NCBI RefSeq assembly: GCF_030268045.1
Contig: NZ_BSDC01000001.1
Span: 620,001-684,000 of the forward strand
Source of the DNA: Geothrix edaphica
Lineage (GTDB): Bacteria; Acidobacteriota; Holophagae; Holophagales; Holophagaceae
Reading direction: 5' to 3'
DNA length: 64,000 nt
Part shown: piece by piece, positions 45,470 to 53,465 of the stretch
How positions within the stretch are numbered: position 1 is the stretch's first letter
Layout of the letters: each line of letters begins with the position of its first letter
Notes under the pieces: generated by a model
The model's database searches: none
What the model was told of the DNA's origin: nothing
What the model saw: only the letters and a program-made list of their open reading frames with translations
Position numbers and translations under genes: made by a program

Positions 45470-46696
45470 TCAGAGGCTCTTCAGGTACTCGACGAGGTCC
45501 GCCTTCTGGGCGCTCGTCAGACCGAGACCCTTCCGGGTGTCGTAGGTCTCGACGACCGCGCCCAGCGTGGGGGCGGTGCCGTTGTGGAAGTAGGGCGCGT
45601 GCTGCCACAGCCCGGCCAGGGGCGCGGTCCGGTACATCCTGGTGGCGCTCCGCGAGGCGTAGCTGGGAACGCCCGCCGGCTCGGGCTCGCTGACCACCTC
45701 GCTGGGCAGGTGCAGTCGGAGGTTGGCGTCGGTCAGCGTCGGGCCCGAGTGGCAGGCGGCGCACTTCCCGGGGCCCTCGAAAACGGCCCTCCCCCGGCCG
45801 GCGGCCGCGGCATCGAAGCTCCCGGCTGGGGGCCGCGGCGCGGCGAGGCTCAGCTGGTAGGCCTGCAGCGCCGGCAGCTTGGCGGACACCAGGTCGGTGG
45901 TCCCGTTCGTGACGCTCACGCCGGTGCGGGGCTCGGAGAAGCTGCCCCGGCCGCCCATCTGGGTCACGGCGACATAGCGGTTCCAGTAGGCAAGGTCGCT
46001 GCCGTCGCCGGTGGCGGTGATGCTGTGCACGCCCAACAGCCCGTAGGCCGGCGGGATCACCTGGGGCCCGTTCTGGCCGTCCAGGTTGAAGCGGGGATCG
46101 TATCTCCCCTTGCCCCAGGAGGCGTAGACGGCCTTGGCGCCCGCGGGCACCGCAGGGGAGAGGGCGATGATGGCGCCCGGGTTCAGGTCGCGGTTGGCCC
46201 AGCCGTCCAGGCGCTTGCCGATGCCCGGCGCGAAGGAATCGTCCACGGTGGAGTGGCACAGGGCGCAGGTGATGCCGACCCGCGTGAGGGTGTCCTTCCC
46301 GTTCACGCTCTCCACCGTGCCCTTCACCCCCACGACGGCGTTGAGCTTCAGCAGGGCCACTGTGGTGGCCGGGTCGGTCAGGCTGATGGCCCCGCTCTGG
46401 ATTCCCTGCACCACTGCGGACGGCAGCGCCTCGGCATCGACCTTCAGGCCCACGGACAGGGCGGTGGTGGGATCCACGGCGGTGGCGATCACCTGGTGCA
46501 TGCCCAGGGTGTCCGTCCAGAAGGCCTCATCCCCGAAGGTGTCGTCGCGGAAGATGACCTTGCCCTGGGCGACCAGGGCCGGGTCCAGGGGCGGTTCGCC
46601 CGGGGCCGTTGCCGCCCGATGGCTGGAATAGCAGCCCGCGGCGACGAGCAGGGCCGCGACCGGGAGGGCGAGGGTGTATCTCAGGGGCAGTTTCAT
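45470..46696 (-). CDS. Diheme c-type cytochrome lipoprotein
   Basis: 408 residues. The signal sequence ends with a lipobox LVAAGC, so the mature protein starts with an acylated Cys. Two heme sites are seen: CALCH near residue 142 and CAACH near 285, spaced like a cytochrome-c-peroxidase-type protein. The C-terminal domain has PLAGLWQHAPYFHNGTAPTL, typical of that family. AGGAG precedes the ATG. It may accept electrons or reduce peroxide at the periplasmic face. It is divergent from a SufR-like regulator with a shared AT-rich promoter region. Confidence 0.86.
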   Translation of the reverse strand: MKLPLRYTLALPVAALLVAAGCYSSHRAATAPGEPPLDPALVAQGKVIFRDDTFGDEAFWTDTLGMHQVIATAVDPTTALSVGLKVDAEALPSAVVQGIQSGAISLTDPATTVALLKLNAVVGVKGTVESVNGKDTLTRVGITCALCHSTVDDSFAPGIGKRLDGWANRDLNPGAIIALSPAVPAGAKAVYASWGKGRYDPRFNLDGQNGPQVIPPAYGLLGVHSITATGDGSDLAYWNRYVAVTQMGGRGSFSEPRTGVSVTNGTTDLVSAKLPALQAYQLSLAAPRPPAGSFDAAAAGRGRAVFEGPGKCAACHSGPTLTDANLRLHLPSEVVSEPEPAGVPSYASRSATRMYRTAPLAGLWQHAPYFHNGTAPTLGAVVETYDTRKGLGLTSAQKADLVEYLKSL

Positions 46697-48624: not shown

Positions 48625-48798
48625 GATTTGCCTGGCTGAAAAATACCATTCCGACCCTTGACGTCCGGACGCTGTCGCACGACCATCGGCAGGCATTGCC
48701 TGACATCGATGTGCAAGGTTGACCACCTGTCCGGAGGTTTCTGGATCGGCTTCGCCGATCCATTCGGGACCTTCCGGGCCCTGCCGAGGGAGGATCTC
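48625..48798 (+). other. Leader region of the envelope cluster
   Basis: No gene is seen. It contains TTGACG (48658-48663) as a possible -35 and a perfect hairpin GGATCGGC-TTC-GCCGATCC at 48743-48761. GGAGG lies five bases before the following GTG start. Confidence 0.4.
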
Positions 48799-50262
48799 GT
48801 GAGACTGCGAACCTATTCCATCGCCACCGTGGCGCTGGTGAGCGTGTTCCCGCTCGCCGCGCCGCTCCAGGCCTGCTGCGATGACTTCTGGAGCTGTGTG
48901 GGCGCCGTGGCCTCGGGGGGGCTCACCTGCGCGGTGGAAAGCCTGGTCAACAGCATCAGGACCCTCATCCAGAACGTGTCGCGGCTGGCTTCGACTCTGG
49001 GCCAGCAGGCCGCCGATGTGGTGAACCTCGCCAAGTCGGAATTGAACGGCGCCGCCGGGGACCTGCGGGGCCTGGCCGGCCAGGCCGAGGGGGACTTCAA
49101 TGCTGCCGCCCAGCTGGCCCAGTCCGTTGTGAACGAGGCGAGCCGCCCCCAAGTGATGGTTCCCCACGTGGCGCCCGGTGTCGCGGCGGCCGCCGGCACC
49201 GCCGGAGCGCGAGCGGGCACCGTCGGCGTGCAGCCCCCGGGCGTCCGTCCGGGTGCCACCACCGCCACCGCGAAACCCTCGACGGTGGGCGCGGTTGGTG
49301 CGGGCACGGGAGTCCGGGTGGATCAGCTGCCGGCCGATCCCCACGAGGTGACGGAGGCCCTGCGGAGGGCCAAGGATGCCATCGACGCCCTCCGCCCCGA
49401 TGTGACGCAGCCCATCAACCAGGTCCGCCAGTTCGCCACCCAGGCCGAGCAGCAGGCCGCCTCCGCGGCTTCCTCCGCCGCGAACATCGCCCAGACGGCC
49501 CTGCTGGCGCCGCTCCAGACCTTGGGCAACATGCTCACGGACCTGGTCAACCACCCGGAGCACATCTTCGATCCCAGCCGGATCGTGGACGACGCCATCA
49601 CCCAGATCACGAACCAGGCCATCACCACCATGACCCAGGTGCATGACGCGGTGATGCAGCAGGCCAAGGCGACCCTGGACCAGGCCCAGCGGCCCATCCA
49701 GGACGCCCTGGACCGCGCCGCGGTGGCGAAGAAGATCGCCGACGCCATGCAGAAGGTCCAGCGCGCGAAGACGAAGTCGTCCTGCGACGCCCTCAACGCC
49801 CTGATCCCGCGCCAGCGCCTGGAGGTCCGCGCCTTTGTCACCCACGTGGCCGGCGCCGCGCCCGCCCCGGGGGTCATGGCCCTGAACCTGAACCAGAACA
49901 GGACCCTGGCCCTGGCGCCCTTCAACCGGACGGTGGCCTCGCGGCTCACCGCCAAGACTGCCGGCACCCAGATGGCCGCCAAGCTGAAGGGTCCCTGGCA
50001 GGACTTCAAGCGCCTCCAGGCCGCCCCCCCCAAGGTGGACCCCGCGGCGAAGCCCAGGGTGGACGCCGAGATCTCCCGCCGCTTCGCCGGGAAGTCGCCC
50101 GCGGAGGCCGAGGGCGAGAAGCGCGCCATGCTGAACGAGGCCCGCACGCGGTTCGCCAAGGATCCGGCCCTGCTCCGGAAGGTCGAGGCCATGCTCGACA
50201 ACGACCCGGTGATCCGGGGCCGCCTGGGCGGCCCCCGCGGCGCGGCGATGCGTGAGCAGTAG
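48799..50262 (+). CDS. Exported Ala-rich coiled-coil protein of unknown function
   Basis: 487 residues. GTG start with GGAGG upstream. A signal peptide (about 25 residues) ends LQA before CCDDFWSC; LQAC could be a non-standard lipobox. A Cys-rich head (CC, C, C within about 20 residues) is followed by a long helical region (about 45-400) rich in Ala, Gln and Asn with repeated Gln-Ala heptads, interrupted by a Gly/Ala/Thr/Pro-rich stretch near 130-175. The C-terminal third has FAGKSPAEAEGEKRAMLNEA. I do not recognise a family. First gene of a three-gene cluster (39-base gap to the next). Confidence 0.62.
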   Translation: MRLRTYSIATVALVSVFPLAAPLQACCDDFWSCVGAVASGGLTCAVESLVNSIRTLIQNVSRLASTLGQQAADVVNLAKSELNGAAGDLRGLAGQAEGDFNAAAQLAQSVVNEASRPQVMVPHVAPGVAAAAGTAGARAGTVGVQPPGVRPGATTATAKPSTVGAVGAGTGVRVDQLPADPHEVTEALRRAKDAIDALRPDVTQPINQVRQFATQAEQQAASAASSAANIAQTALLAPLQTLGNMLTDLVNHPEHIFDPSRIVDDAITQITNQAITTMTQVHDAVMQQAKATLDQAQRPIQDALDRAAVAKKIADAMQKVQRAKTKSSCDALNALIPRQRLEVRAFVTHVAGAAPAPGVMALNLNQNRTLALAPFNRTVASRLTAKTAGTQMAAKLKGPWQDFKRLQAAPPKVDPAAKPRVDAEISRRFAGKSPAEAEGEKRAMLNEARTRFAKDPALLRKVEAMLDNDPVIRGRLGGPRGAAMREQ

Positions 50263-50301
50263 GGCCATGCCCGGGGGTTCCCCCTTGTCTGGGAGGCAGG
50301 T

Positions 50302-52338
50302 GTGATCGATCGGTCTCTGCGGACCTTCGTCCTGGCCACCGCCACCGCCGCCACGGCGGTGGCGGCCGGGGACGGCTTCGAGCTGAAGCCGCCCGCCGCC
50401 CCCGGCGCGCCACTCCAGGGCACCGCCACAGCGCCGGCGGGAACGGAATGGGTGGTGGTCTTCTACCGGGTGGCGGGGGAGGAGGAGTTCTCCAGCTTCA
50501 ACCTGGATGTGGGGCCGGACGGGACTTCCTATGCGGGCCAGCTGCAGGGCGCCTTCCCCTCGGGGGCGAAGCTCGAGTACTACGCGGCCCTGCGCACCCC
50601 CGCCGGCATCAAGTACCTGCCCCGGGAAGCCCCGGCGGCCTTCGCCAGCCTGCAGCTGCCCGGCACCCCCGTGGCCCCGGCGGGCGGGGCTGCGGCCCAG
50701 GCTCAGGCCGAGCCGGTGCCTGGGCCGGGCTCCGGTCCCGGCCCGGGGAACCCGCCCCCGGCCCACGGCCCGATCTACGTGGACGGCGCCTTCGAGCGCG
50801 TGGCGCACCACCAGAACCCGGTTCCGGGGGAGCAGCGGAATGTGGCCTCGGGCCAGATCCGGTTCGCCTACCAGAAGGACGAGGATGGCCGCCAGGTGCT
50901 GCTGAACGCCCGGGTGGTCTACACCAACCAGCCCTTCGGGAACCAGACGCGCTGGAGCCTCGGCGACCTCCAGGCGGCCTACGCCGCCGGAGGCCACAAG
51001 GTCCAGGTGGGCGACATGGTGGTCCAGGAATCCGAGCTGACCCTGGGCGGGGCGGGGCGCCGGGGCCTCGATTACACCTACGCGGGGCAGCCGCTGGGGG
51101 CCCATCTCTTCGCCCTCAACACCCAGGCCCATGCCGGCACGGAGGGGCTGGCCTGGCCCGTGAAGGGCAGCGAGGTCTACGGCGGGTCCCTGGGCTACGG
51201 ATGGCTCAACGGCAACCTTCGGGCCAAGGTGGTCTTCCTCTCGGGGAAGGACGATCCCGCCACCGCCACGAACCTGGTGTCCGCCTACGCGCCCACAGTG
51301 CGGGACGGGTCCACCGGCTCCCTGGTCCTGGACGGGCGCTTCTTCGACAGCCGGCTGGCCGTATCCGGGGAGTACGCGCGCAGCCTCTTCACCAAGGACC
51401 TGCTGAACGAGGCGCCCCACCTCGCCGACCAGGCCTGGCGCCTCAGCGGCTTCTGGGCCGATGGGCCCTTCAGCGCCCAGCTCGGCTACCGGGACGTGGG
51501 CCGGGACTTCGGGACCGTGGGCGTGGCGTTCTTCGTGGGGGACCGCCGCACCCTGAACGGCAGCCTCGGGTTCAACCGCGCCACCTGGAGCCTCAGCGCC
51601 ACGGCCATCGACGAGCGCACCAACCCCACCGGACAGCCCGGCCTGGACCAGGCCTGGAGCCAATCCCAGAGCCTGGATGCGAGGGTGGGGCTCACCCAGG
51701 CGCTGTTCTGGCGGGTGGGGCTCCGGCAGGCCCGCCAGGAGGCCGAGCTGATCTCCAATCCGCTCATCCCCTTCAGCAACAGCACCCGCTCCGGGCTGAC
51801 CACCGGCTTCGACCTGATGCTGCCGCCCGCCTCCAGCCTGGCGTTCAACGCCCAGTTCGACCGCCTCCGCGCGGAAGGCGCCAGCGACACCCGGGGGACC
51901 AGCACCACCTTCTCCCTCGGCGGCAGCCTGGCCGTGGGACAGCGCGTGCGGGTGTCCCCGAACCTGAGCTGGTCCCGGACCCTCAACGATCCCGGGGACC
52001 AGAAGACCACCATGGAGAACGCCTTCCTCAACGCGGACTTCGCGCTCGTCCCCGGCATCCTGGGCTTCCTCCTGAACGGGGGCATGTCCCGGACCGTGCT
52101 CGTCACCGGCGAGGTGATGGAGAACTCTGTGGCGGAGGGCACCCTGCGGTTCTTCCTGGACACCTTCCTCAAGGGCCGCGGCCGGGCCAGCCTGGGCCTC
52201 AAGGGCCGCTACACCCACGCGCCGGCCCTGGCGGCCCTGGCCCGGGGCGGGGCGACGGGGACGCCGACCCCCGCCACCACGGCTGCGGCCATGGCCAACG
52301 ACAACCAGGTGTCGATCCTCCTGAACATCTCGTACTGA
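50302..52338 (+). CDS. Outer-membrane beta-barrel protein with N-terminal Ig-like domain
   Basis: 678 residues. GTG start with GGGAGG. After a signal peptide (ends TAVAA) comes a small beta domain (about 25-115: GTEWVVVFYRVAGEEEFSSF, LEYYAALRTPAGIKY), then a Pro/Gly-rich linker and a barrel of about 480 residues with many alternating strands, ending QVSILLNISY. The N-terminal module resembles the beta-sandwich found at the front of many outer-membrane proteins. No plug domain, so it is not a TonB receptor. It may form an export channel or surface anchor for its neighbours; that is inference. Confidence 0.7.
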   Translation: MIDRSLRTFVLATATAATAVAAGDGFELKPPAAPGAPLQGTATAPAGTEWVVVFYRVAGEEEFSSFNLDVGPDGTSYAGQLQGAFPSGAKLEYYAALRTPAGIKYLPREAPAAFASLQLPGTPVAPAGGAAAQAQAEPVPGPGSGPGPGNPPPAHGPIYVDGAFERVAHHQNPVPGEQRNVASGQIRFAYQKDEDGRQVLLNARVVYTNQPFGNQTRWSLGDLQAAYAAGGHKVQVGDMVVQESELTLGGAGRRGLDYTYAGQPLGAHLFALNTQAHAGTEGLAWPVKGSEVYGGSLGYGWLNGNLRAKVVFLSGKDDPATATNLVSAYAPTVRDGSTGSLVLDGRFFDSRLAVSGEYARSLFTKDLLNEAPHLADQAWRLSGFWADGPFSAQLGYRDVGRDFGTVGVAFFVGDRRTLNGSLGFNRATWSLSATAIDERTNPTGQPGLDQAWSQSQSLDARVGLTQALFWRVGLRQARQEAELISNPLIPFSNSTRSGLTTGFDLMLPPASSLAFNAQFDRLRAEGASDTRGTSTTFSLGGSLAVGQRVRVSPNLSWSRTLNDPGDQKTTMENAFLNADFALVPGILGFLLNGGMSRTVLVTGEVMENSVAEGTLRFFLDTFLKGRGRASLGLKGRYTHAPALAALARGGATGTPTPATTAAAMANDNQVSILLNISY

Positions 52339-52349
52339 GGAGCAGCCCC

Positions 52350-53465
52350 ATGCGAAACCTCCTCATCACCCTCGCGCTCCTCGGCACCCTGGCCCTGGGG
52401 GCCCAGGGCACCGGCACCCTCTCCGTGACCCCCGGCATCCCGGTCACGGGGGTTCCCACCACGTTCCTGCTGTCCGCCAGTCCGGCGCCGGTCGGCGCCG
52501 TGGTCTGGGACTTCGGGGATGGCACCTCCCTCAGCGGCGGATCCGTGGCGACCCATGTCTACGCGCGGTCCGGGCCCTACCTGGTGCAGGCGGTCTATCC
52601 GGTGGTGGTCGGGCAGGTGTTCCAGACCGCCCAGCTGCCGCTACGGGTGGCGGACCGCTTCGGGCCCGCGGCCCCGTTCAGCATCTCCATGCTGCGCCTC
52701 CGCTGGGAGGATGGCCGCGTGGACACCACCGTGGAGCAGGGCTTCAGCCCCCTGGCCGCCTTCGCGGACGTGAAGTTCGAAGGCACGGGGCTGCTCCAGG
52801 CCCAGTGGGTGGTGGATGACATCCCGCTGGGCACGTTCACGGCGTCCCTGGCCTTCGCCGGCGCGGTCACCCTGGACTCGAGCCGCATGATCCCCCTGCC
52901 CACCACGGCCTACGGCGAGCACCTGGTCACCCTCAGGATCCTCTCGCCGGTGGTGCCCTTCGAGTCGCCCCGGATCCGCTACTTCGTGAAGCTGGGCGGC
53001 GAGGAGGCCCCCCAGGTGGATGAGGTGGCCCCCTCGGCGGTGCGCCCCGGCGAGGAGACGGAGCTCCGCATCCGCGGCCGCCGTCTGGCCCCGGGCATGG
53101 CCGTCTCCTTCGGCAAGGACATCGCCCTGGTAGCGCCGCTTCGGTTCCCGGAGCCCGGCTGGGCCATCGCCCGGGTCTTCGTGGCTCCCACGGCCCACCC
53201 GGGTTTCCGCGAGGCCCAGGCCTTCAGCAAGGCCGGGCGGAGTCGCGGCCCGGCGCGGCTGGAGGTGCTGCCCCGGCCCCGGCAGACAGCTTCGGCTGGA
53301 CCGGTGCCGCCCGCGCCCCTCCTGGCCTTCCTCTGGTCCGAGGGAGATGGCGTGGCGAAGCCCAGCCTGCTCCGGGCGCTGACGGCGGCCTTCTTCCCTC
53401 CGGAGGAAGGGTATTCCGCCGGAGAGGCCCCAAACCTCTTCCAGCGGCCTTCCGGAGAAGAATGA
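52350..53465 (+). CDS. Exported PKD- and TIG-domain protein
   Basis: 371 residues. Signal peptide (ends TLALGAQ), then a PKD domain (about 25-105: VVWDFGDGTSLSGGSVATHV, with the WDFGDG hallmark), a second beta domain (about 110-220), and a TIG/IPT-like domain (about 225-310: VDEVAPSAVRPGEETELRIR). The C-terminal tail is basic and Pro-rich. Such modules mediate binding to surface polymers or proteins. It begins 11 bases after the barrel gene, indicating co-transcription. Confidence 0.7.
   Translation: MRNLLITLALLGTLALGAQGTGTLSVTPGIPVTGVPTTFLLSASPAPVGAVVWDFGDGTSLSGGSVATHVYARSGPYLVQAVYPVVVGQVFQTAQLPLRVADRFGPAAPFSISMLRLRWEDGRVDTTVEQGFSPLAAFADVKFEGTGLLQAQWVVDDIPLGTFTASLAFAGAVTLDSSRMIPLPTTAYGEHLVTLRILSPVVPFESPRIRYFVKLGGEEAPQVDEVAPSAVRPGEETELRIRGRRLAPGMAVSFGKDIALVAPLRFPEPGWAIARVFVAPTAHPGFREAQAFSKAGRSRGPARLEVLPRPRQTASAGPVPPAPLLAFLWSEGDGVAKPSLLRALTAAFFPPEEGYSAGEAPNLFQRPSGEE

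Follow-up and report, generated by a model that had tools for sequence, protein, structure and literature searches.

A conserved gene pair for a predicted plugless outer-membrane barrel and a PKD-bearing partner in Acidobacteriota, with a Geothrix-specific gene ahead of it

The window, a 64,000-nucleotide stretch of the Geothrix edaphica genome, contains three consecutive genes, here called A, B and C, which encode an exported helical protein, a predicted outer-membrane barrel and an exported protein with PKD and TIG-like parts (Table 1). The coordinates of the open reading frames confirm the arrangement given in a preliminary description of the locus: all three frames are intact, lie on the same strand and are separated by gaps of 39 bases (A to B) and 11 bases (B to C). 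Each gene is preceded by a purine-rich ribosome-binding site that is retained in relatives, and the three are presumably transcribed from one operon. Comparison with three other Geothrix yields Ka/Ks values of 0.16-0.26 for A, B and C; all three genes are under purifying selection, and the cluster is more than a chance neighbourhood. The trio is flanked on one side by a gene that we take to be DUF2891-like, and on the other by tadA-carAB. Three genes upstream of A, positions 45470-46696 of the window encode a likely dihaem cytochrome lipoprotein containing two CXXCH motifs; this gene is not conserved alongside the trio.

Table 1. Positions of the genes and associated features within the window
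Feature	Position	Strand	Remarks
Ribosome-binding site of gene A	48785..48794	+	about GAGGGAGGAT; kept in relatives
Gene A	48799..50262	+	start GTG, 487 aa
Gene B	50302..52338	+	start GTG, 678 aa
Gene C	52350..53465	+	start ATG, 371 aa
M domain of C	52671..52988	+	new conserved domain, ~106 residues; the part that every C protein linked to B shares

Protein A has a signal-like N-terminus, a composition marked by alanine (19%) and glutamine (7%), and a predicted model that is helical throughout, in agreement with the exported, Ala/Gln-rich helical protein first described. The longest stretch of the model is a 73-residue helix spanning residues 42-114; it is followed by a Pro/Ala linker (119-173), which is disordered in the model, and by further long helices at 199-251, 261-323 and 364-408. 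The characterization of A as Cys-headed holds insofar as its cysteines (C26, C27, C33 and C44) are clustered near the N-terminus, but the PLQAC/LRAC motif (14 members) falls outside the strict lipobox rule of PROSITE. In one relative of A (locus L031), Cys 27 and Cys 33 are both missing, and Cys 26 and Cys 44 are kept. This paired loss suggests that the cysteines of A form two disulfides rather than a lipid anchor, and A was rejected as a lipoprotein. The view that A is unlike any recognized family stands, as neither Pfam nor NCBIfam contains a family that scores above its cut-off. A phage or tape-measure protein was considered and discarded: PHROG returned weak matches only, and no relatives of A were found in phages or viral contigs. 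Searched against the PDB, the model has no match under E 0.001, and its best structural match, a trypanosome receptor at Z 12.5, was dismissed as lying below the chance level for helical bundles. Judging by its predicted model, A would be an exported all-helical rod without known relative.

Protein B consists of an Ig-like domain (residues 26-118), a linker, and 26 predicted strands (158-677), and its C-terminal residue is aromatic. The structure model bears out the barrel with an N-terminal beta domain and no plug that had been proposed from the sequence: the turns are short on one side of the barrel and the loops long on the opposite side, and a plug domain is absent. Among 28 members of the family, known domains were represented by just two weak SlpA_C matches (E up to 0.01), and a plasmid search using B returned none. 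B represents a new family, in which a periplasmic Ig-like domain is joined to a predicted 26-strand outer-membrane barrel without a plug. The N-terminal Ig-like domain is doubled in four Geothrix genomes (L028-L031).

Protein C begins with a signal peptide, followed by a PKD domain (residues ~30-100), the domain here called M (108-213), a TIG-like part (~218-308) and a low-complexity tail. Its previous reading as a PKD and TIG protein is upheld for PKD, which exceeds the Pfam cut-off (31.0 bits against 27, E 2.7e-7); the TIG-like part lies just below the cut-off for the related Qn_am_d_aIII (20.2 bits against 22); the relative of C in locus L065 is above both the TIG and the Qn_am_d_aIII cut-offs. 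The M domain between them, however, had been overlooked. M of the window has no match in Pfam (E up to 1) or in the PDB, and is a new domain, absent from Pfam. While M alone is constant across the B-linked loci, the number of PKD domains varies from 0 to about 6, and the tail that follows M, TIG-like in the Geothrix family, carries elsewhere a different Ig-like domain, at times together with a further domain. The C proteins range in length from 309 to 2083 aa, PKD arrays being frequent among them. Neither a recognized outer-membrane secretion signal nor a lipobox was found in C. The giant C proteins of 1550-2083 aa (L066:1665-7916, L067:2164-8142 and L065:5546-10195) carry an additional M-like domain, partial and located much further towards the C-terminus.

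The pair of B and C is a conserved unit across the phylum, whereas the trio is not. B is present in 34 of 396 genomes, representing 17 genera, with one of the 34 (G334) matching the Ig-like domain only. The sequence 3' of B could be read at 39 loci, comprising 15 trios from Geothrix and 24 further loci and spanning at least seven families of Acidobacteriota; in every case the next gene, on the same strand as B, is of the C type, and the gap to it is mostly 8-13 bases. The association is equally visible from the side of C. Two genomes found by the C profile alone, G077 and G055, both turned out to have B immediately ahead of C (profile A4, E 1.9e-38 and 2.2e-23, respectively), and B accompanies a strong M domain in 29 of 30 genomes, the remaining one (G129) ending at a contig edge. 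A single B may be accompanied by two or three C genes, as seen at loci L065, L071, L073, L074 and L162. An orphan C-type gene without an adjoining B is found at L126:7577-10192, in a genome with a B-C pair elsewhere. The pair is without a named family, and literature searches on Geothrix with PKD, and on Acidobacteria with PKD and a barrel, found nothing.

The expected co-occurrence of the three genes in other Acidobacteriota thus holds for B and C but not for A, which was detected in 10 of the 396 phylum genomes; these ten belong to Geothrix without exception, and each has B. Only some members of this genus carry A, and it was never found without B and C. All three genes stand together in 15 Geothrix genomes examined, and in G020 a contig end interrupts the locus. 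G. fermentans DSM 14018 (locus L007) has the trio as well. In G237, B and C are present, and the place of A is taken by an unrelated exported gene of 259 aa. Two other genomes, G002 and G032, retain the conserved flanking genes and are missing the whole trio; in the tree of tadA, carA and the DUF2891 gene they are nested among the carriers, with weak support for the deeper branches. Since these trio-less genomes nest among carriers and have intact flanks, A, B and C appear to be gained or lost as a block, and the trio appears to come and go as a unit in Geothrix. At locus L030 the trio occupies a different genomic location, with A still ahead of B. Relative to the B-C pair, A is most plausibly an accessory part peculiar to Geothrix.

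By analogy, surface display, adhesion or export, as envisaged in the preliminary description, remains the leading reading of the locus. In the type IX secretion system of Bacteroidota, PorP-like barrels act as binding partners of surface proteins that carry a type B CTD, and sprF adjoins sprB (PMC9143113). B and C resemble this arrangement in the adjacency of their genes and, as we infer, in the binding of a surface protein by an outer-membrane barrel; they differ from it in the 26 predicted strands and the Ig-like domain of B. It is this analogy with PorP/SprF barrels holding type B CTD adhesins that underlies the reading of B as a holder of C. The NCBIfam PorP/SprF models match neither B of the window (E up to 1) nor three distant B proteins (E up to 0.01), and the type B CTD models match neither C of the window nor two distant C proteins. 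SprA (TIGR04189) had no match in the genome, a search that gave none in the control genomes either.

We tentatively favour, at somewhat less than an even chance, a model in which B and C are partners dedicated to each other at the outer membrane, with C bound to B through M, its heads outside, and A as an accessory. C would cross the inner membrane by means of its signal peptide, bind B through the M domain and be retained by B at the outer membrane, its PKD and Ig-like parts probably reaching the outside via B. The PKD array would then be a stalk whose length varies, and the tail would form a head particular to each lineage. In Geothrix, A, presumed to belong to the same operon, might act as a helical rod that reinforces or tethers the assembly on the periplasmic side. 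The constant pairing, the variability of the PKD stalk and tail, and the presence of several C genes per B point to a barrel serving C-type clients via M; several C genes per B are as expected for a scaffold with several clients. Within this model, we infer the binding of M to B, the surface exposure of C, the contact of A with the pair and the localization of the proteins. Against this model speak the occurrence of a C-type gene without an adjoining B, the lack of a recognized outer-membrane secretion signal in C, and the fact that PKD and TIG domains occur in periplasmic proteins too. The more far-reaching proposal, that B and C constitute an undescribed display or secretion system of Acidobacteriota, with a 26-strand translocator and anchor, clients recognized by M, exposed PKD-array heads and lineage-specific extras such as A, seems to us rather doubtful.

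It is unlikely that C instead stays in the periplasm, where it would plug B or tether it to the wall and, together with A in Geothrix, close from inside a large channel that needs gating. A plugless barrel of 26 strands needs a partner, in the way that MtrA sits in the 26-strand barrel of MtrB (PMC7198977). The plain signal peptide of C, the helical nature of A and its apparently paired cysteines are also in keeping with a periplasmic role. The wide range in the size of C and its frequent PKD arrays would, however, make an odd design for a plug, and arrays of this kind typically belong to extracellular proteins. An uptake pair similar to SusC-SusD, with B as a nutrient channel and C as a substrate-catching binding protein, is quite unlikely. 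The combination of a barrel gene with an adjoining gene for a binding-type partner fits this explanation, and the patchy distribution suits a niche function, but B has no TonB plug, C is not a lipoprotein, and the loci read contain no conserved enzymes or transporters near B and C.

We consider it improbable that the trio has no joint function and that A is merely located ahead of the pair, as its absence from G237 and from every other genus with B and C might suggest; the strict association of A with the pair, its position ahead of B at different genomic locations and the joint absence of the three genes argue otherwise. Export of a polymer or filament, with B similar to a fimbrial usher and C as its subunit or tip, is highly improbable. 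Ushers such as FimD and PapC have a large barrel and a structural score comparable to that of B, FimD being near the top of the structural matches (Z 16.8, rmsd 5.0, 372 residues), but they have no detectable sequence relation to B (hhalign probability 0.2% for four E. coli ushers), the fimbrial usher profile (PF00577) has no match in this genome, and the B model is without a plug. An electron conduit in this iron-reducing genus, with B as an MtrB-type sheath, is scarcely credible: MtrB is the top structural match of B (Z 17.7, rmsd 4.6, 452 residues, a ranking that means little since the score is within 1 of those of AlgE and ushers), the two barrels share the number of strands and hhalign gives a probability of 63-66%, but the genome has no match to the MtrB_PioB profile (PF11854, a model that detects MtrB in 54 of 199 Acidobacteriota), haem motifs are absent from A, B and C, CXXCH counts in the neighbours of B reveal no conserved multihaem gene that could supply a cytochrome partner, and B has the extra Ig-like domain. 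B was rejected as an usher or an MtrB, and the sequence comparisons give no ground for calling it a PorP.

Although Acidobacteriota abound in soils, little is known of their outer membrane. A family of large barrels whose constant partner is marked by a new domain offers a testable handle on the placement of surface proteins, and genes annotated as hypothetical in at least seven families become one recognizable module. The slot preceding B in this module is occupied by A, by an exported family of ~472 aa (f6), by another C gene (f27, sometimes with a CHAT gene ahead of it), or by unrelated genes. The f6 proteins are conserved, have no Pfam match and precede B at L125:5905-7323, L157:5589-7007 and L159:6196-7620; they were considered as relatives of A, and no relation was found. 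In f27, a CHAT-domain gene lies directly before a C-B-C group (L071:12541-15288, where it also carries TPR, and L162:3717-5399), and its product is possibly a protease linked to the B-C module.
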